In this document: one piece after another, positions 13,942-29,020 of the stretch | How the letters are laid out: each line of letters opens with the position of its first letter | How positions within the stretch are numbered: position 1 is the stretch's first letter | Assembly: GCA_900128585.1 (NCBI GenBank) | Contig: LT642218.1 | Location: 1-32,188 of the forward strand | Direction of reading: 5' to 3' | Length of the DNA stretch: 32,188 nucleotides | From: Stramenopiles sp. TOSAG23-3 | Taxonomy: Eukaryota > Sar | Made by a program: the position numbers and the translations under genes | Notes under the pieces: model-generated | What the model was told of the DNA's origin: nothing | Database searches by the model: none | What the model saw: the letters and a program-made list of their open reading frames with translations, nothing else

Positions 13942-16817
13942 GATTTCCCGAACTTCAAAACGATGCCGTGCCGGCCGCAGTATCTAAAAGAAGCCTCCCG
14001 CTAACTCGCAGTCCCGGTGTTGAACGACAGTGGGTGTCTCGGAGCGGGCGAGGCTTCGTCTCTGAGTTCTCACTATTGCGACAATATTAAATATTCTGTT
14101 AGCCTGGCGTATTAAATGAATTACCGTACGTGTTCCTGCTATCTCTATAAAAGAGTGATAATAAAATGTTGCCAAAATAAGTCCCGCTTCATCAAAGTGA
14201 ACACTCTTCATTACAATCAACGAATTGTACCTTGCCTTTAATTTTACTTTTCTTTGATTGAAGGAACGAAACCAGTGTTTCCGTTTATTATTTAAAAAAG
14301 ATGATGATGATGATTTATATAGGAATACAATGGGTGAATAATATTCTTTTTCGGGAAAAAAGTAAAAAAAAGGAGGAAAGAGGGAAGGAGGAGGAATGAA
14401 GAAGGTTTAAGGGAATAATTATTTATACAAAGTAATATTATTGGTCAGTGTATAAGAAATTAATATGGAAATAGCATAAGGAAAAGGAACAAAACACCAC
14501 AAAGGCATATATTCGTATTCTTTTAATTTAATATAATTGGGATTAATATAAGTATTCTTTACATTACAAAATAATGTCTATCTAATATCTTCATAGTACA
14601 AATATTTGTATGCTTATAATGTTAGAATCTCAAGAACATATGTTATTTCACTAACACTGCTGACAATTGTACTATACCTATGCAATTAAATTTTATATTT
14701 CATTGTTAGAACATTGATATGCGTTCAAAAAATAAAGTATAGATAGGACATCTTTTACATATATACAATATTGATAATAGGAAGCAAAATGACCTGAACA
14801 CCTTTTCCCTAATTCAGCCGGTGACAGAGAACAGAAACCCCCAAGTCTACTACACCAATGCTATTCCTATGTACATAATTTTGGTTCCGCACTTGATAGT
14901 TTTCCCACTTAATCCTATGTTATTAATATATCATATACTGTTCATAGCTAATCAGTGTAGTATTTAATTAAAATTCACTCTTTTCAGTAGGGCAGAATAT
15001 GCTAAGGAAGAAATTTCCTCTAGAATCCTAGTCTATAAAATCCCCGGGAAAATTATTGAGGCAGGGGATGATGTTCAATAGTATTGTTATGTAACACGCA
15101 ACATATGTTGGCTAATCTGAAACAATAAGATAGCTAAGAAAGTGGCCCCTAAATTTTCAAGAACTGTACGCGGCAGTAAGGAAACCTTCCTTCCTTTTTC
15201 TATTTCATAAATGTATACTATATATAGTAACTATTGTACAATAAGTACATATTCAAATTGGAGGAACCGGGGAGGATGTTGCGTACAGGAACAAAGCATT
15301 GAAGACAAAAGACAGACCCACGTCTTCAAAATATATAAGTTGCAGCAATTGTAAATGCATGTATATTTTGACAATGGTAAGTATTTGGGTGACGGAGTTT
15401 ATAGCCGCTAAATAATGTACACCGTATTTTCACTGTTATCTTTATGTATAAAGTGTACCACAAACCACAAAGTTCCAAAACCATTTCTTCTTGGAGATTA
15501 TTCATTGGTAGTTTTATATAAAGGTGTCTTTCATAACTATTCGTTTTGTATATTTAAATGATTAACGTAGTGTATAATATTGTTATATATCACACCTGTT
15601 CAAATATTGTATTTGATGTAAATATACGATTGTAGGAGCATATCAGGAAAATAAATTAGAAAGAGGAAAAGTCGTTATTTTTCTTTCTTCTTTTTTACAA
15701 TTTTTTTCTTTTTTTTATTCTGTATTATTATTGCTCGAGCGATCATCATTTTTAAGTTTAAGCCAGGCGAAGAAGCCACTACTTTCAATTCCATCTTCTT
15801 ACTTCAAAACTATAGTTATATAAGTGTATTACAATACTTCCATTTGATAGATTAAAAAATGAAGGTTAATCTGGAAAGAAGTAAAAACAATGATAATAGG
15901 ATTACACAGTATTAAATATTTTATTACTACAATAGGAGGGAGTACGGCAGTCAAAATTAAGAGCAATGAATTGAAATGAAAATTCATTAAAAGTTTATCG
16001 ATCCTTTTCCTATGTTGTGAGTTGTGACAATGTTAAATAACACAACTGAAAGAATTGAATTTTTTTTCGCTGTGCTGTGTCATTTATTACTCTGTGCTCT
16101 GAATTGATGAATAATTAACCGTCGTTATTTTATTATTTTATTTATTAGTGAAGTAAGTCCTCAGTCTTCATCATCGTCAGTTATTAATTATATTTCAATT
16201 TATTATAGTCTACCCTATGTATTACATTACATACGTGATGAAGTAATAATATTTATGTTAGACTACTTGAGACGACTATTGGTTGGTACCGTAGGTAACT
16301 ACAGTACATTCGTTTTATCCAAGTGATTCATGTCGCATTTGAAAATTATTTTGGAAACCAACCCTTTTATTCGTTTTGTATTCTAATGTGTTTTGATAGG
16401 GATATTTATTACATCGGCATATCATTGGGTTGGTTTCCAAAGTAATTTTAAAATGCGACATGAATCACTTGGATTATTATTGATTCTAAACCACAAAAAT
16501 AATAGTCTTATACCTCTTTACCAAGTACGGTATAGTAGAGAAGATGAAGAAACAAAAACCAGATAAACAACATAGTAAAAAAGAACAACATACAACAAAA
16601 AACCCGAGGAATAGCTAAATAAATATGAACAAGAAGAAAGAAAGTATCATTTCAGCGATGATAATTTCTTATCGATTCGTCTATCAACATATAATTAAAG
16701 TAAAAAGAAGTCGACTGGAAACGAATTGAGATTGTTAGTACAACAACGAGCTCTCTACACGGGAAGAAAAGGATTCGTACATAGATTCTGATTTCAGAAA
16801 AAAGGTAGCATTAGAGA
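13942..16817. other. 2.9 kb AT-rich divergent intergenic region
   Basis: The longest gene-free stretch here, between the DYRK and MARVEL-SH3 starts. Most is AT-rich with poly-T/poly-A and a GAT run near 14300. Its one striking element is the inverted repeat at 16317-16474, listed separately. No tRNA, snRNA or conserved protein was recognised. Short frames (for example 13984-14220 on the minus strand) lack coding character. Confidence 0.65.
16317..16474. repeat. 158-bp inverted repeat (hairpin-forming)
   Basis: Left arm 16317-16364 and right arm 16427-16474 are reverse complements at 46 of 48 positions, with a 62-nt loop. The arms begin ATCCAAGTGATTCATG and end CATGAATCACTTGGAT. Of the two differences, one would be a G-U pair in a plus-strand transcript. 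A match this good over 48 bases is not expected by chance even in AT-rich DNA. It could be a miniature inverted-repeat transposon, a small-RNA precursor or a recent palindromic duplication. I see no clear target-site duplication at the ends. Confidence 0.85.
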
Positions 16818-18140: not shown

Positions 18141-18188
18141 AAACAAGAAAATTGGCTGTTATTTAAAAACAAGAAAATTGGCTGTTAT
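18141..18188. repeat. Two tandem copies of a dispersed 21-nt motif
   Basis: Two exact copies (18141-18161 and 18167-18187), 26 nt apart, share the core AGAAAATTGGCTGTTA. Three further exact copies lie 8.5 kb away (26672, 26864, 26941). They sit just downstream of the coiled-coil gene on its strand. The reverse complement contains CCAAT. Confidence 0.9.
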
Positions 18189-18293: not shown

Positions 18294-21200
18294 TCAGTTC
18301 AATCGAACATTGGTGGTAAACTGCAAATATGCAAAACAAACTGCACACAATACTGCAATGGTTGAAAACAAAACGCTTGGATACCTTGAGATCCCTTTAG
18401 GCGCATCTTCATCTTCCAACCTGCCAGATACGTTGTCCTCGACAGCTGTTGACGATTTGCCTCCTGAAGTTGCACCTTCGCGGGTTTTGAAATACGACAG
18501 GAAGTTCTCCCACTCAATTTCTTGATGGCCATCTTTATCCATACTTTGAAACACAGCTTCAAATTTATCGCGCGTGACACCTTCGTAAACATGCTGGGCT
18601 AAATCGAACTGTTTTGCAACGTTCTTACTTTCACGCAAGGCTTCTAGGAACTCAGTTGGTGTCAACAAACCATCATGGGTTTTGTTCATTAGGTCGAACA
18701 AGCTTTTGATAGATGCCTCTCTTCCCTTACTGCTAGAGTGCTCGTCAATTATTTTCAAAGCTCCCATTATCTTTTCATGAGCCTCCAAATATCTCGTGTG
18801 TTGATCCCTAATAATGTTTCCTGTGCTTTCCAAGGACTCCGTTTGTGATTTAACCAGCATAACTTTATAAAAGCTGGTTTGCGCTTTGAGTTGTGCCGCT
18901 ATATTGTTAGATAGTTTATCAAGCAGCGCATCACAGCCCTCTTTGACGGCTGTATGAATTTCGGACTTGAGTGCTGCGTTAACTTCGGCATTCAATTTTC
19001 GCCTTCCGCTCTCCATTTTCGCTTGTAACTGTTCGTTTAACCGGACCATGCGATCGTTCATGGAATGCTGGAAATGTTCAATACCTTCACACCTCTCGGA
19101 AATCGAGTCATATTTTGCAATCGTCATTCCCATCATATTTTCGATAGTCTCCATAACGTTTGCGACCAGATCATGAGCTGCCCCCTCTGCAACCTGGGTT
19201 TGTGAACGGACGTTTTCCATGTTTGCCATATTATTGATATTTAACTTGGCAATCATTTGCTTTATATCGCTTGTCGATTCCTTCATCTCGGAGCCCAAGT
19301 GGTGCCTGTTCGCGATTATTTGTTTGTCTAGTTCAAGGAGTTTTGCTTCCACAAGAGGCCCGGCAAAGTCACTCGAGATCGTGTTGTCGTCCTGCTGCCG
19401 CAATTGGTATCGTTCTTCAAGTAGCTGTCGCACTTCTCCGTGAGTAGTTGATAATTTCGATTCAAGATCTCGAGACAACTGTGATTTGATACCTGATATA
19501 TTTTCATTTAACGATGCTGTGGCACTCCCCAAAATGCCGTTGATGAAACCTTTCAGGCCATTTGTGTAGGCGGAAGCTTCTACTTTAATCTTTTCTTCAA
19601 TACAGGGTTTCAAACGATTGATAATTGCGTCGGCAAACTGATGACATTTGCTCGTTGAGCCCGTATCGTTCAGGAGGAACAACTTCACTTCCGCCAACGT
19701 CGACTCTATCTGCTTGTTACTAGTAAGAAGGTCCTTCGGGTTCCACTCGAACTGCGGCGCATTCAGTTTGGAAATATGCTCCAATACCTGCGTACAAATA
19801 GTGTTGGCAAGTGCCGTGCTGTCTAAATTAATGGGGTCCAAGTTCAACGCGTCCTTGCGTTCCACCAATGTTTGTAATGCTTCTAATTTCTTAAGCAAGC
19901 GTGCACTGGCATTCGCCTCCGAGCTGGTCGTGTTCAGTTTGGAAATTTCTTCTGAGAATCGCTTAGAAATAGTGTTGACAAGTGTTTTGGTGTCGAAATT
20001 AAGGCTGCCGACCTTCGAAACCTCTTTGCTTTCGACCGACATTTGCAAAGCTTCCAATTGCTTAAGCAAACGCGCGCTATTAACGACGCTTTCGCCTTTA
20101 TATTCGTCCTTGCTTTCTATTAATGCCTGTATATCATCGAATCGCATCATCACGGGTTCCGTGTCGAACGCTTTTGCATCCAATTTTCGCATCAAAAGCC
20201 CTAAAGTTTCTGAACGATAACGCGAGAAATCCTTGCTAAACTTTGTTTTGAGCTCATCGAGTTGGCTCGTTATGCTCTGATCCAACGAAGCCCGGTTCCG
20301 TTTCAGAAAGTTCTTTAGCTCTAAGTGCCGTTTTCGAGAATGATTGAGCGAGTCTAAATGATGCTTTTGTTCACTCAAGACCATTTCCTTCAGATCCCCC
20401 AGATTTGCGTCAAAAACACCCGGCGAATGTCTGTGCTCCTCAGTATATGCTAACAGCATCGAGTGAATCGATTCCAATCGCCCCGAATCCGATGACTGCC
20501 GTCCCTCCTTCTCTCGTTCGCGTACCTCTGGGATCGCTTGTAGCAGAATATTCCTCGACCTCTCGAATGCTCGTTTTGTGTCCGCAGCCGATGTTTCCAG
20601 TCTCGCACCTACGAATGCTTTTAACTCCGTCAATTTACTACTGATTGAAATATCAAATTGGGATAGCTTTTCCACCAAGTGTTTCGAAAGCAACGTCTCG
20701 ACGTTGCTGATTTTTTTCAAAACTTCCGGCTGCTCCACGCCATGCTTCAGTGTACGAAAAATGTCCTGTAACTCTTCAACAAAAACTAGTCTCTCCTTGT
20801 ACTGCAGATTCTCGTAGATGCTATTATGTTCCTCAGTTGTTCGAATGTTCAACCTATCTTCAATACTATTCTTGATATCATCCAAGTCCGTTAGGTGGTT
20901 ACTCTGCGCTACGTGGAAGTCCATTTCCGAATGAACTAAAATTTCGTCATACTCTGTGGGATGCTTAACTTCTGGAGTGTAAACCTGCAAATGCACTGCT
21001 CCATGCTCGTCGTTAGTGGAGTCTGGAGACCCAGTCCGGGTTGAGGACGGAGACCCATTGGACGACCCAGGGGAAATCTGAAGGGCACCCCTCGCGGTCT
21101 CTAAGTTTTGTGTGACCTGAGCAATGGTCTTCTGGAAATCAGTCAAAACAAAATTTTCGCCAGAATTGCTGTCTGGAAACGATCTTTCCTGTAAAATCCC

Positions 21201-21365
21201 ATTTGCTTTGGCCAAATTCTGGGATATTTCTCTGTACATGGACCGCAGCTTATTTTCATTTCTCTCCGGCGCGGTTTTTCCCGTGGGTACAACTATATTC
21301 CCCTTGTCACTATTGTACCGGAGGGTATTTTCTTCCGACAATTCGATACCTGATGGTTTCGACAT
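18294..21365 (-). CDS. Long coiled-coil protein with EF-hands and C-terminal membrane anchor
   Basis: A 1,023-residue protein I cannot assign to a named family. Start: ATG at 21365 (MSKPSGIEL); the frame reaches a TTG 15 nt upstream, then an in-frame stop. Most of it is helical, heptad-like and rich in Lys, Glu, Leu and Ser. A 49-residue block (430-478) is repeated at 487-535 with 26 of 49 residues identical, each beginning SARLLK and ending ISKLN. Near the C-terminus are an EF-hand-like pair: the first loop (894-905, NKTHDGLLTPTE) has Asn at position 1 and Thr at 3; the second (from 943, DKDGHQEIEWEN) lacks the usual Glu at 12. A single hydrophobic segment (about 997-1015) then ends five to eight residues before the stop, which is tail-anchor topology. 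Its 3' end is the source or sister of the terminal exon of the gene at 27130-29020. Calcium sensing and membrane tethering are inference. Confidence 0.8.
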   Translation of the reverse strand: MSKPSGIELSEENTLRYNSDKGNIVVPTGKTAPERNENKLRSMYREISQNLAKANGILQERSFPDSNSGENFVLTDFQKTIAQVTQNLETARGALQISPGSSNGSPSSTRTGSPDSTNDEHGAVHLQVYTPEVKHPTEYDEILVHSEMDFHVAQSNHLTDLDDIKNSIEDRLNIRTTEEHNSIYENLQYKERLVFVEELQDIFRTLKHGVEQPEVLKKISNVETLLSKHLVEKLSQFDISISSKLTELKAFVGARLETSAADTKRAFERSRNILLQAIPEVREREKEGRQSSDSGRLESIHSMLLAYTEEHRHSPGVFDANLGDLKEMVLSEQKHHLDSLNHSRKRHLELKNFLKRNRASLDQSITSQLDELKTKFSKDFSRYRSETLGLLMRKLDAKAFDTEPVMMRFDDIQALIESKDEYKGESVVNSARLLKQLEALQMSVESKEVSKVGSLNFDTKTLVNTISKRFSEEISKLNTTSSEANASARLLKKLEALQTLVERKDALNLDPINLDSTALANTICTQVLEHISKLNAPQFEWNPKDLLTSNKQIESTLAEVKLFLLNDTGSTSKCHQFADAIINRLKPCIEEKIKVEASAYTNGLKGFINGILGSATASLNENISGIKSQLSRDLESKLSTTHGEVRQLLEERYQLRQQDDNTISSDFAGPLVEAKLLELDKQIIANRHHLGSEMKESTSDIKQMIAKLNINNMANMENVRSQTQVAEGAAHDLVANVMETIENMMGMTIAKYDSISERCEGIEHFQHSMNDRMVRLNEQLQAKMESGRRKLNAEVNAALKSEIHTAVKEGCDALLDKLSNNIAAQLKAQTSFYKVMLVKSQTESLESTGNIIRDQHTRYLEAHEKIMGALKIIDEHSSSKGREASIKSLFDLMNKTHDGLLTPTEFLEALRESKNVAKQFDLAQHVYEGVTRDKFEAVFQSMDKDGHQEIEWENFLSYFKTREGATSGGKSSTAVEDNVSGRLEDEDAPKGISRYPSVLFSTIAVLCAVCFAYLQFTTNVRLN

Positions 21366-21380
21366 TTGTTCGACAGGCAA

Positions 21381-22506
21381 GGTTTCATATGGCTTCGGTT
21401 AAGTGTCTGTTTGTCCCGTTGGCGTTAATCTTAGGCTTTTATGACCTGGTACGGTTTCAGGTGGGCATTGGTGTATTATATTTATCTAATTTCAAAATTG
21501 AGTGATTTCAAGCGGTCTTCTTTCAATTTATTAGTTGTAGATTAATAAAGCCCTTGTGGTGTGTTGTTGTTATTGTTGTAGCAGAACTTTTTTTATTCTT
21601 CGTTTCTTCTTTCACTTTCTTCACTTTTCACTTTCCTTCTTTCTTCTTTTTTTTTTAATTATTATTATTATTTAATTACAATGCTGTTGGATGTTGGAAG
21701 AGTACTTGCTGCGAATGATGAAGAAGAGTAAAATTTAACGATATTTATATAGATAATCAATAAAGAAATATGTAATTATAATCTGTATGAATATTCATTT
21801 GTTTGTATAATATATAATAAATACATAACTAAGGTTTCTATCTAATATATATAATATAAACACAGCAGCATTATAGTTTCTAATCAACAAATTTTCGAAA
21901 TTTCTGGTCGGTTGCCGGTTGCGCGGCTCTTTCTATTTATTCTTCTTATTTTTTTTCTGCATTTTTCTACAATATTTACGAAGGTTACAGATATTATTTA
22001 ATGAACAATACAAAGGAATACAATTGGGAAAGGGAAAAAAAGGGAGGAGAGCTGGGCTGGGGCCTGCTGGGGCGGGGGTAATAAATAATCGCACGCGCAA
22101 CTGAGCACAGTTGTCGTATATGCTATTTTGATGCTAGAGGAAGATGATGATGACTTTATTTAACATAATATTATCGACGCGATGATATGATGATGACGTT
22201 GTTTTGTATCGAATAAAATGTTTGTTGTAACTTTATACAATACATATATACAGGCTATAACATATTTCAATTACCAACAACAAATATGAGGAACAGCGTC
22301 GGCCGGACCGAGGAGTTTTTTTAGAAGTCACCGGAGACGACGACCAACGAGAGAAAGAGAAAGCCGTCCGGACACGGACACTTCAACTTTACTTCAGTCC
22401 ACACACTGCTTCAAATGCATCGCACGCGTTCACTTACGGTGAAGATTCTAATTTACTCACTGAAAAAAGTCGCAGCTAGTATAACTTTACTTATCGACAA
22501 AAACCA
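21381..22506. other. Divergent intergenic region upstream of desaturase
   Basis: About 1.1 kb, AT-rich, with TTC and ATT runs (21595-21675) and GATGAT runs near 22145 and 22185. It contains a GC-rich G-tract cluster at 22054-22078, listed separately. The last 200 bp before the desaturase ATG are less AT-rich and may be its 5' UTR. No RNA gene was recognised. Confidence 0.6.
22054..22078 (+). promoter_or_regulatory. Potential G-quadruplex motif upstream of desaturase
   Basis: Four G-runs of 3, 4, 4 and 5 with loops of 2, 6 and 1 nt meet the standard intramolecular quadruplex pattern, with three more GGG runs just upstream (22026, 22032, 22042). It lies about 430 bp before the desaturase ATG on the coding strand, within otherwise AT-rich DNA. 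The motif is plain; any regulatory effect is inference. Confidence 0.5.
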
Positions 22507-24021: not shown

Positions 24022-24618
24022 TTGCACACGGATTAGTCCAAAACATCAAATATTTTTATTCTTGTGTAAAACCTAATAATAATTTTGTTTCTAATATGCT
24101 GTAAAAAGACGATAAGAAAAATCTTGGAAACCCCTACTCTAAAGTTATCTGCATCCCCACCCACCGTTTATTTTTATTTTTAATTTACACACATTTTAAT
24201 TTACACACAATAATTATTGTCCGGTTATAACAACAATACGAGAGACCAATATAGACAGGTGGTAGGCACACAAAGGAACACAACAGGGTATACAAACCGG
24301 CGTCAGTGATCGCATACTACACATTTTTTTTCTTATTGGATACTTCCTTTATTACTCTCCTCCTCCCTCCTCCTCCTTCTTCCTATTCTCTCCTCCTGCC
24401 TCCTGCCTCCTGCTGCCTCACCGATATTTTTTTTTTTATTATTATAAAATATAATAATAATAAATTAATATATATAATAATAATAATAAAAAAATATGCC
24501 AGAAGCACACATATTATTACATTATCAACATTGCTCGATAACATGAGTAACAACACTGTTTCGTAATTTATAATCAGACTGATGTTCATATTTTGAATTT
24601 TCAAGCATCTAATAATTC
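24022..24618. other. Intergenic region with polypyrimidine tract and AT microsatellite
   Basis: About 600 bp between the desaturase and the DnaJ-like gene. It includes a TCC/CTGCC-rich pyrimidine tract (24354-24418), a poly-T run (24427-24436) and an imperfect TAA/ATA microsatellite (24438-24496). No coding or RNA gene was recognised. Confidence 0.6.
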
Positions 24619-26541: not shown

Positions 26542-27129
26542 GATTTAGATGTTTTGGCCCTTTTACAACCCAAGTGTTTTGGGTGAAGCCCCAGAGAAGT
26601 TTAAATTCACTGGGCCTTTGCTAAACGCACAACGGGCTGTAATGGGTATTACGGAGAGATTTAATTAAAAAAAACAAGAAAATTGGCTGTTAGTTAAGTA
26701 ATTAAAATTAATGTACTGCGAACTGAAATCTAGATATAGACAATTCTAGGTTTGCATTCCGTCATAAACTGCGAACTAAGCTATCATTCTCAGATGTACT
26801 CCATTGATGATCTGAATCAGTTGATGGATTAACACTGCTTTCAAATGAATGAGATTTAATTAAAAACAAGAAAATTGGCTGTTATTTAAGATTTAATTAA
26901 AACTTTATAGTAGTACCAAGGTATATATGCATAATACTAAAAACAAGAAAATTGGCTGTTATTTTTTATAAGTATAATTAAATTTAGCGTCCTCATACCC
27001 TAATCCTAACTTGGTTCTGTAGTTTTGTTTCATTATTCGTTGTCAATCACAGAGGGGATGATATATCTACTCTTAATAAATGTTTTGTTGGGTAAAACAA
27101 ATTTATTTTTCAGAGCGTCACACACAAAA
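26542..27129. other. Convergent spacer carrying dispersed repeats
   Basis: Between the stops of the DnaJ-like gene and the EF-hand exon. It carries three copies of the 21-nt motif and shorter pieces shared with 18188-18270: TAAGTAATTAAA, TACTGCGAACTG (26714 and 18227; a third CTGCGAACT at 26769), and AATTAAATTTAGC followed by TACCCTAAT (26978-27004). This is the duplicated 3' flank of the coiled-coil gene. Confidence 0.75.
26672..26961. repeat. Three dispersed copies of the 21-nt motif
   Basis: Exact copies at 26672-26692, 26864-26884 and 26941-26961, same orientation as the two at 18141-18187. Copies at 26864 and 26941 share three further bases (TAA) at the left. The spacing is irregular (192 and 77 nt). 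Confidence 0.9.
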
Positions 27130-29020
27130 TCATACCAACGAGGATCCTCGACGGGCGTTTTTGCCCTTCTTCTTGTTTTTCTTTTTTTTCTTTCCAGAGT
27201 TCCCATTAGACGCCTCTTCATCTTCCAACCTGCCAGATACGTTGTCCTCGACAGCTGTTGACGATTTGCCTCCTGCAGATGCACCTTCGTGGGTTTGGAA
27301 ATACGACAGAAAGTTCTCCCACTCAATTTCTCGATGGCCATCTTTATCCATACTTTGAAACACAACTTCAAATTTATCGCGTGTGACACCTTCGTGAACA
27401 TGCTGGGCTAAATCAAACTGTTTTGCAACGTCCTTACTTTCACGCAAGGCAATTAGGAACTCAATTGGTGTCAACGAACCATCATGGTTTTTGTCCATTA
27501 TGTCGAACAAGCGTTTGATAGATGCATCTCTACTGCTATGGTATAAATCAGTGGCTACGTCAGCAAATCATAGATTCGGGGTGGTGATGAAAGATATTTG
27601 ATGATAAGACTTACCTTGAATTGCCCGGCGACGAAGCAGGGCTGCCATTCTGAGCACTTACCTCTATTGCTTCGCCCAAGTTAGTTGGTACAAGCGCGGA
27701 GGTTCCGTGCGATGATCCTGGTGATTTCTTTGCTTTTGGGCTCACAATATTTTTGGAATGACTGGATGAAGATTCCACCATCGGGGAAGTATCCGAACTA
27801 GCTGCTTGCGGTGAATTGGGGCGGGGGAAACGAGGCTTGGGGGACACCGGCACAACCGATTTTCGACGCTGCATTGTCCCTGGGGGTGCTTTGCTCACTT
27901 GGGACGGTGAAAACGTACACTCCCGTAAACCCTGATCTTCCAACCTAGAATTCGCAAGGGACTTGTAATCTGGCGCGGCAAGCCTCTTTTTTGTTTTTGC
28001 AACGCCAGATTCGTACAACCGGTTGAAAAACTTTAGCTGCTCTCCTTCGCTGGTTACGACCTTGCTTTTGATGGGACCAATATTTTTCTCCTCCTCCTCA
28101 GTCTTCTTCCTTCGTTCCAACATTGCCACGCCTTGATTGTACAGCCTTTCGCTCGCCGGCGTTGTGTCCTCCACTGCAGCATCACTCTGTTCTTTCTTCT
28201 GCTTCCCAGACGATGGCTTCGATATGGCCGGGGAAAAGGTGCACTCTGCCATCGTGTTGTCCACCAGGGCCTTTCTCTTTTCATCCAACTTTTTTTCATT
28301 CGCTTTGGCGTCGGAATATAGTCGTGCATAGACGCCCGACACGCTATTTTTTTGGGCCATCTTTTCCGATTTTGTATCCAAAACGGGCGAAAAAGTACAG
28401 TCTCTTACTTCGTTCTCCATTTTGCGTTGCTCCAATTGCATTTGTTTCTTTTTCAAACTATCTGGGTCATACAGTCTATTCCGAGATTTTGCGACTTTCT
28501 TATTTAACTTAGGGGTAAACGTACAACCCCGAAGACCCTCCATTTTCTCTCGTTCTTTTTTTCGGCGTTGGGACGCAGTGGCCTGGCTAAACAGGCGCTC
28601 CCCGGGTGAGCCCTTGATTTTCGATTTGTACCGGCTTCCCTTCGTAGAAAGCTTCGGTTGAAACGTGCAGTTCCGTGGCCTCGCGGCTATGGTTGCCTTT
28701 TTCTTCTTTTGGGACATTGTCGCTTGAATATGCAGCCGTTCAAACCTGTTGGTTGCCCTCGACAACGTCGTTGCTCCGTCGCTATCGTCAGTGGACCCTT
28801 TCCCACGGCGCTTCTTCAAAGGCTTGGTGAATTTCTCCGGCCGAAACGTCAACCCTGTCTGCGACTTTTGCTTTCGTCGCGTTTCCATCCTCTCTTTGCG
28901 GAGTTTTGCATCGTCGTACAGAGAGTGCAACCGTGCCATGTTTGCGGTCTTCTTCGGTTTTGAAGCCGAAACGCCCCCGCCGCCGCCCTGCTCCGCTTGC
29001 TGAACCGCCAAGGACGCCAT
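27130..29020 (-). CDS. RLY/CTFxP-repeat protein with spliced-on EF-hand terminal exon (two exons)
   Basis: Exon 1 (29020-27615) encodes seven loose repeats, each about 35 residues: RLY or RLF/RLH, a charged helix rich in Lys/Arg/Glu, then CTFxPxL (repeats near 31, 95, 141, 181, 232, 291 and 334; the sixth lacks the CTF part). A Ser/Pro-rich stretch follows (380-468). The apparent stop TAA at 27611-27613 lies inside a perfect donor, AAG/GTAAGT. Splicing to 27535 (or 27532) joins in frame to exon 2 (to 27130), giving 603 residues. Exon 2 carries a canonical EF-hand loop (483-494, DKNHDGSLTPIE), a degenerate second loop, and a lysine-rich tail instead of a membrane segment. Repeats of this kind occur in uncharacterised protist proteins, some probably cytoskeletal; the function is unknown. 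Without splicing exon 1 would encode 469 residues. Confidence 0.78.
27201..27539. repeat. Duplicated segment, paralogous to about 18392-18735
   Basis: The two segments align almost without gaps on the DNA level. At the protein level, 91 of 110 residues are identical across the EF-hand region (by-eye count). Similarity stops at the splice acceptor on one side and just before the differing C-terminal tails on the other, then resumes patchily in the 3' flank. Confidence 0.9.
27536..27614 (-). other. Spliceosomal intron, 79 nt (or 82 nt)
   Basis: Donor GTAAGT at 27614-27609, branch-point-like TGCTGAC about 30 nt before the acceptor, and acceptor TAG at 27538-27536 followed at once by a second CAG (27535-27533). 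Both acceptors keep the frame. Splicing is inferred from these signals and from the phase match between the two coding blocks. Confidence 0.75.

Follow-up and report, generated by a model that had tools for sequence, protein, structure and literature searches.

In animals, the joining of exons from adjacent genes is likely the main route of domain gain, and at least 80% of gain events are preceded by a duplication, in the account of Buljan et al. (2010; PMC2926785). For the gain of introns, the closest description is the AGGT model (Ma et al. 2016; PMC4974935). Here we describe a locus of Stramenopiles sp. TOSAG23-3 in which a gene for a protein with RLY and CTFxP repeats lies directly upstream of an EF-hand region that is nearly identical to part of a coiled-coil gene. 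Such a chimera would belong to a familiar class of events; what is unusual is the intron-poor genome around it. The window (the whole stretch of DNA that was analyzed, 32,188 nucleotides) is the entire contig C478 of a eukaryotic assembly of 12.9 Mb in 660 contigs. The first-pass annotation described the locus as a recent chimeric gene made by segmental duplication and exon capture. Our tentative reading, for which we put the chances just short of even, is that the RLY gene is a young spliced chimera with an EF-hand fragment copied from the coiled-coil gene. The features are listed in Table 1.

Table 1. Features of the RLY gene, the coiled-coil gene, and their surroundings in the window
Feature	Position	Strand	Basis or remark
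Exon 1, RLY/CTFxP-repeat coding sequence	27615..29020	-	Open frame; relatives P0003-P0016
Donor GTAAGT with TAA stop (27611-27613) inside	27609..27614	-	Sequence
Candidate intron, 79 nt	27536..27614	-	Sequence only, putative splicing
CTGAC, possible branch point	27559..27563	-	A 24 nt from 3' splice site
CTGAT, alternative possible branch point	27547-27551	-	A 12 nt from 3' splice site
TAGCAGT, in-phase candidate acceptors TAG and CAG	27532..27538	-	Also in coiled-coil gene, 18729-18735
Putative exon 2, EF-hand pair, Lys-rich tail, and TGA stop	27130..27535	-	Open frame, Pfam, phase
Second GTAAGT, phase 0	27656..27661	-	47 nt upstream of first
Copied piece	27197..27531	-	92.5% identical to 18388-18722
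Lys-rich tail	27130..27196	-	Not found in presumed donor; possibly old RLY C-terminus
Coiled-coil gene, EF-hand pair and hydrophobic C-terminus, orphan	18294..21365	-	Open frame, Pfam, hydropathy
Matching piece within coiled-coil gene	18388..18722	-	92.5% identity to 27197-27531
Dispersed-repeat cores	18144-18185 and 26675-26959		Downstream of both EF-hand genes, same orientation

The RLY open frame (27611-29020, minus strand) has 469 codons and ends AAT TCA AGG TAA. As the first-pass annotation had proposed, its stop codon lies inside a GTAAGT donor, a 79-nt candidate intron with CTGAC follows (27614-27536), and exon 1 can be joined in phase to the EF-hand frame; the sequence agrees on all three counts. 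Joining 27615 to 27535 (acceptor TAG) or to 27532 (acceptor CAG) gives a single open frame of 603 or 602 aa, respectively. Our intron scan (see below) paired this donor with yet another in-phase acceptor, a third AG at a distance of 85 nt. Pyrimidines make up 60% of the 20 nt preceding the acceptor AG. Judged by eye, the second GTAAGT (27661) does not match the phase of the EF frame at the 27535, 27532, and 27529 acceptors. The two perfect GTAAGT sites at the RLY gene are 47 nt apart, and the mean spacing of this hexamer is ~6.2 kb. Over its 390 nt, the EF region has a coding-like composition (+17.7 nats). The score of the 120 nt preceding the donor is +2.8 nats, and sampled 120-nt coding stretches have a mean of +4.4 (sd 5.4). 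The first ATG of the EF frame encodes the Met directly preceding loop 1. Therefore, a free-standing EF frame would lack the first helix, for which an upstream exon is needed.

The copied piece and its counterpart lie on the same strand and align over 335 bp with no indel and no stop codon. Their products share 91 of 111 aligned residues, so the near copy reported earlier is real, but its denominator of 110 was one residue short. The likeness between the copies stops sharply. Three alignments of the sequences 3' of the copied piece, compared with shuffles, detected no similarity between the two genes (P 0.43, 0.78, and 0.85). On the 5' side, only TAGCAGT (7 nt) is shared, across a 6-nt in-frame gap, and free alignment of it was not significant (P 0.58). 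Beyond the 335 bp, then, the copied piece brings at most the acceptor-bearing TAGCAGT. It sits in the RLY gene without the presumed donor's stop, hydrophobic tail, or 3' flank, and neither the proposed intron nor the Lys-rich tail comes from that donor. We also considered a duplication across the whole 3' end of both genes, suggested by a repeat that both have downstream (see below), and rejected it because the intervening stretch was not alignable. A search of the 12.9-Mb assembly at E ≤0.001 returned these two matches only and no third copy of the EF-hand piece.

There are 25 differences between the copies (21.5 nonsynonymous and 3.5 synonymous). The dN/dS ratio is 1.69, and neutrality is not rejected (one-sided P 0.37), so this comparison does not show selection for function. 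A dS of ~0.05 fits the recent origin that had been proposed. Gene conversion gave no clear signal and was dropped as an explanation (longest identical run 61 nt, P 0.13), but it keeps a residual probability, and the age is qualified to that extent.

The coiled-coil gene is a single open frame of 1023 codons, and the matching piece is internal to it. Therefore, if this gene was the donor, no exon was captured: there is no donor exon to capture, and this part of the first-pass annotation has to be given up, although the reverse direction of copying would require a fresh look at that outcome. What survives of the proposed chimera by segmental duplication is the shared EF-hand segment, in phase across a well-formed intron; the event is better described as the insertion of a fragment than of an exon. 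The two parts of the gene do differ in ancestry, with exon 1 resembling P0003-P0016 and the EF-hand part the coiled-coil gene, as in a chimeric gene. The 3' end of the donor mRNA, which a retrocopy would include, was not seen: the RLY gene has none of the donor's tail, stop, or 3' flank. The coiled-coil open frame has no intron that a retrocopy could have lost.

The hydrophobic C-terminal segment of the coiled-coil protein reaches a best 19-residue hydropathy of 2.16. The gene also contains an internal direct repeat (19762-19907 and 19933-20078, 72% identity over 146 bp). Searches for relatives of the protein found only itself, both at E ≤0.01 among 263 candidates (P0001) and at E ≤0.1 among the matches listed when 7988 candidates were scored. 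These protein searches took candidates of 0.55 to 1.75 times the query length, which placed small separate EF-hand frames outside their range. In viral contigs, one pattern search had no match, and another had 29 pattern matches, none of which was confirmed by tblastn.

Cores of a dispersed repeat lie downstream of both EF-hand genes. The core, ACAGCCAATTTTCTTG, has 675 exact copies in the 12.9 Mb (reversed control, 0), and of the 87 long frames in 232 kb, 9 are followed by the repeat within 300 bp, whereas none has it ahead of the start. With a repeat this common, its occurrence at both genes says little for a duplication of the whole 3' end. The window also contains palindromic inverted repeats (16317-16474, 24428-24494, and 21800-21862; 75 to 78% identity).

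The genome is intron-poor. Counted by hand, 63 of the 99 kinase matches span from profile position ≤10 to ≥250 in a single open frame, and none of the 27 helicase matches has a stop inside. Six of nine stretches with partial matches were inspected; no clear intron was seen, and one had a change of frame. The Prp8 domain had no match in the assembly, which is uninformative because prokaryote-only controls also matched nowhere. The frame of a beta-tubulin gene (L017, on contig C121) breaks and resumes in another frame, with a stretch missing by inspection, reflecting a frameshift or an assembly error.

We scanned both strands of 232 kb (200 kb plus the window) for introns. Five of the 75 GTAAGT sites passed the intron filter, and two of these five were the RLY gene's own pair. 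For 12 decoy hexamers, 26 of 1052 sites passed (0 to 7 each; 7 of 118 for TGAAGT). The RLY donor ranked first among the five candidates with a branch-point-motif bonus and third without it, and stricter thresholds removed every candidate, the RLY site among them. The RLY site is not clearly above background. Among the 87 frames of ≥250 codons in the 232 kb, 2 have their stop inside GTAAGT or GTGAGT, the RLY gene being one of them, so a stop in such a place is no great rarity in itself. Contig C412 has a frame of 867 codons on its minus strand whose stop likewise lies inside GTAAGT (position 41561 of the reverse complement of bases 1-50000), with a possible 48-nt intron. The argument for splicing of the RLY gene is thus one of combination, in which the donor, the phase, and the open EF frame, with the tail described below, point the same way. 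The junction had been called active-looking. By sequence, the intron is indeed well formed and in phase; its splicing is putative, in an intron-poor genome and with a scan near background.

Both copies are recognized as EF-hand pairs. With the pair profile EF-hand_7 (PF13499, cut-off 30), the RLY copy scores 36.7 bits (E 5.6e-09) and the coiled-coil copy 37.2; with EF-hand_1 (PF00036, cut-off 25.4), the scores are 33.0 and 24.7. The RLY scores were obtained from 27130-27510, a stretch that leaves out the opening residues of helix 1. Loops were compared with the EF-hand signature. Loop 1 of the RLY copy, DKNHDGSLTPIEF, is a canonical 12-residue Ca2+ loop, and loop 2 fails the signature. At loop 1, the RLY copy has the canonical DKNHDGSLTPIE, whereas NKTHDGLLTPTE of the coiled-coil copy is not canonical, and the latter copy has no canonical Ca2+ loop at all. 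A structural model of the EF-hand part, of low confidence (mean pLDDT 47.9), places helices at residues 3-17, 24-32, 53-65, and 73-81, in the expected order.

A search with the joined protein (7991 candidates scored) returned at least 16 proteins at E ≤0.01. P0001 is the coiled-coil protein, and P0002 is the RLY gene itself, stored as an unspliced 469-aa call that ends at NSR. P0003 to P0007 are 42 to 47% identical to the RLY protein, and the nine proteins P0008 to P0016, among them P0013 from Triparma verrucosa, are 25 to 30% identical. Pfam at E ≤1 found no EF-hand in P0003-P0010 or P0013 (9 of the 14 relatives scanned); P0011, P0012, P0014, P0015, and P0016 are without a precomputed Pfam domain. 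The proposed search of related genomes for an RLY gene with an EF-hand therefore came back empty for the nine relatives scanned as stored protein calls. This absence could be an artefact of gene calling, because P0002 omits the EF-hand of this very gene. All five closer relatives (P0003-P0007) lack an EF-hand, which agrees with its gain by the RLY gene, but the calls are unspliced, and the direction of copying is our interpretation.

Against such an artefact, the C-terminus KKV.SR.S..V is shared by P0003, P0004, P0006, and P0007, as true termini of these four calls would be; P0005 lacks it and was excluded from the tail tests. The C-terminus of the spliced RLY protein would be KKKKKNKKKGKNARRGSSLV, which has four of the seven residues that are invariant in those four ends. 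A four-residue match occurred in 0 of 150 ORF C-termini of the genome (shuffles, P 0.014). By BLOSUM62 the likeness was weaker, with 3 of 150 ends equally good (shuffle P 0.22), and both tests were devised after the likeness had been seen. The unspliced end NSR scored -8.25 against the ends of the relatives (mean of 150 ORF ends, -7.6). The tail thus weakly resembles the C-terminus of relatives that have no EF-hand. If this likeness is real, the EF-hand entered the old gene internally instead of being attached after its end, and the C-terminus of the family is retained in the spliced form. Within the same proteins, MAFFT aligned DSAIDML of the relatives with DASIKRL of the EF-hand part; we considered this match to be probably due to chance and did not retain it as homology.

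These observations bear on whether the RLY gene is spliced at all and on which gene held the EF-hand first. The gene may be unspliced, its protein ending at NSR and the downstream EF-hand piece being a non-functional duplicate that has not decayed. A dN/dS indistinguishable from neutral speaks for this, as do the scarcity of introns, the near-background scan, the two stop-bearing donors among 87 long frames, and the stored database call. However, the junction is in phase, the frame is intact without an indel, loop 1 has stayed canonical, and the terminus resembles that of the family only when spliced. We regard the unspliced gene as somewhat unlikely. An assembly artefact is far less probable still, even though the assembly is metagenome-like and incomplete and the beta-tubulin gene shows that at least one other gene has a broken frame, because 25 differences between the copies and flanks that differ on both sides cannot come from misjoining one sequence.

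Because the coiled-coil gene is an orphan, we infer the direction of copying from indirect evidence. The RLY relatives favor a gain by the RLY gene: as their stored proteins have no EF-hand, copying from the coiled-coil gene needs one gain, whereas the other directions need two. Alternatively, the RLY gene held the EF-hand first, or both genes took it from elsewhere. Loop 1 is indeed more canonical in the RLY copy, which also scores higher with EF-hand_1, and the copied piece starts at a splice acceptor, as it would if it came from a spliced exon; the orphan status of the coiled-coil gene leaves room for this as well. But the parent copy may have decayed later, the stored proteins of the RLY relatives speak for one gain, and the assembly shows no copy from a third source at E ≤0.001. 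It does have two further, weak EF-hand matches at other places, but these resemble ordinary EF-hand proteins and do not settle the direction. We consider a reversed direction or third source unlikely. The loop and the EF-hand_1 scores suggest that the common ancestor of the copies had a full loop, which the presumed donor probably lost later; this does not fix the direction.

Returning to a spliced chimera with the coiled-coil gene as donor, the events may have been as follows. A fragment of ~335 to 350 bp from inside the EF-hand part of the coiled-coil gene would have been copied, without a change of orientation, to a site ~8.8 kb away at the 3' end of the RLY gene, whose frame ended in a putative donor site holding its own stop codon. 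The intron would consist largely of resident sequence, with an AG from the extreme edge of the copied piece as its acceptor. Splicing would then remove the stop and append two EF-hands, the first with a complete set of Ca2+ ligands, along with the Lys-rich tail, which may be the old RLY C-terminus. The predicted product would have ~602 residues, a repeat scaffold with a Ca2+-responsive tail, and this may also describe its function. In its fullest form, this would mean that the arrival of a foreign coding fragment at the 3' end of a gene created a spliceosomal intron in an intron-poor genome, the host stop becoming part of the donor site and an AG of the fragment the acceptor, and that a Ca2+ sensor joined a cytoskeleton-type repeat protein as the parent copy lost its Ca2+ ligands. 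We think this complete scenario unlikely as a whole.

The value of young chimeras with sharp, datable pieces is that they still show how a domain was gained, step by step. If the RLY gene is spliced, a single event would have provided both a domain and, perhaps, an intron that it did not have before, in a genome with few introns otherwise, and its former stop would now serve in a donor site. As P0002 illustrates, extensions of this kind can escape gene calling that ignores splicing.

One neighbor of the RLY gene in the window encodes a CFA20-domain protein, and another encodes a WD40 protein (WD40-type Pfam matches only) that is presumably dynein-intermediate-chain-like. In a profile search of the PDB, Toxoplasma CIP3 (chain 9y9z_63) gave a sub-threshold match over CTFxP-like motifs (E 0.8). 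CIP3 is described as an extended protein that wraps protofilaments 2-5 and penetrates the tubulin wall (PMC12819142). Its motif match is not significant, and we claim no membership for the RLY protein; a cytoskeletal role is a lead and no more. The EF-hand part of RLY is similar to those of SCaMC-1, KChIP2, NCS-1, and calsenilin (E 1.1e-4 to 7.7e-4). Unlike these Ca2+ sensors, it has a canonical loop 1 only and is fused to an unrelated repeat protein.

With the domain gains described by Buljan et al. (PMC2926785), the RLY gene shares a duplicated piece of a nearby gene that would add a domain near the end of the protein. It differs from that account in that the piece lies within a gene of one open frame, comes without its stop, and is not a donor exon, and in that the genome is intron-poor. 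As the AGGT model is presented (PMC4974935), splice signals come partly from a formerly exonic duplication boundary, and the same would hold here. In contrast to that model, the RLY duplication is not tandem, the donor site overlaps the host stop, and the acceptor edge alone may have been copied.
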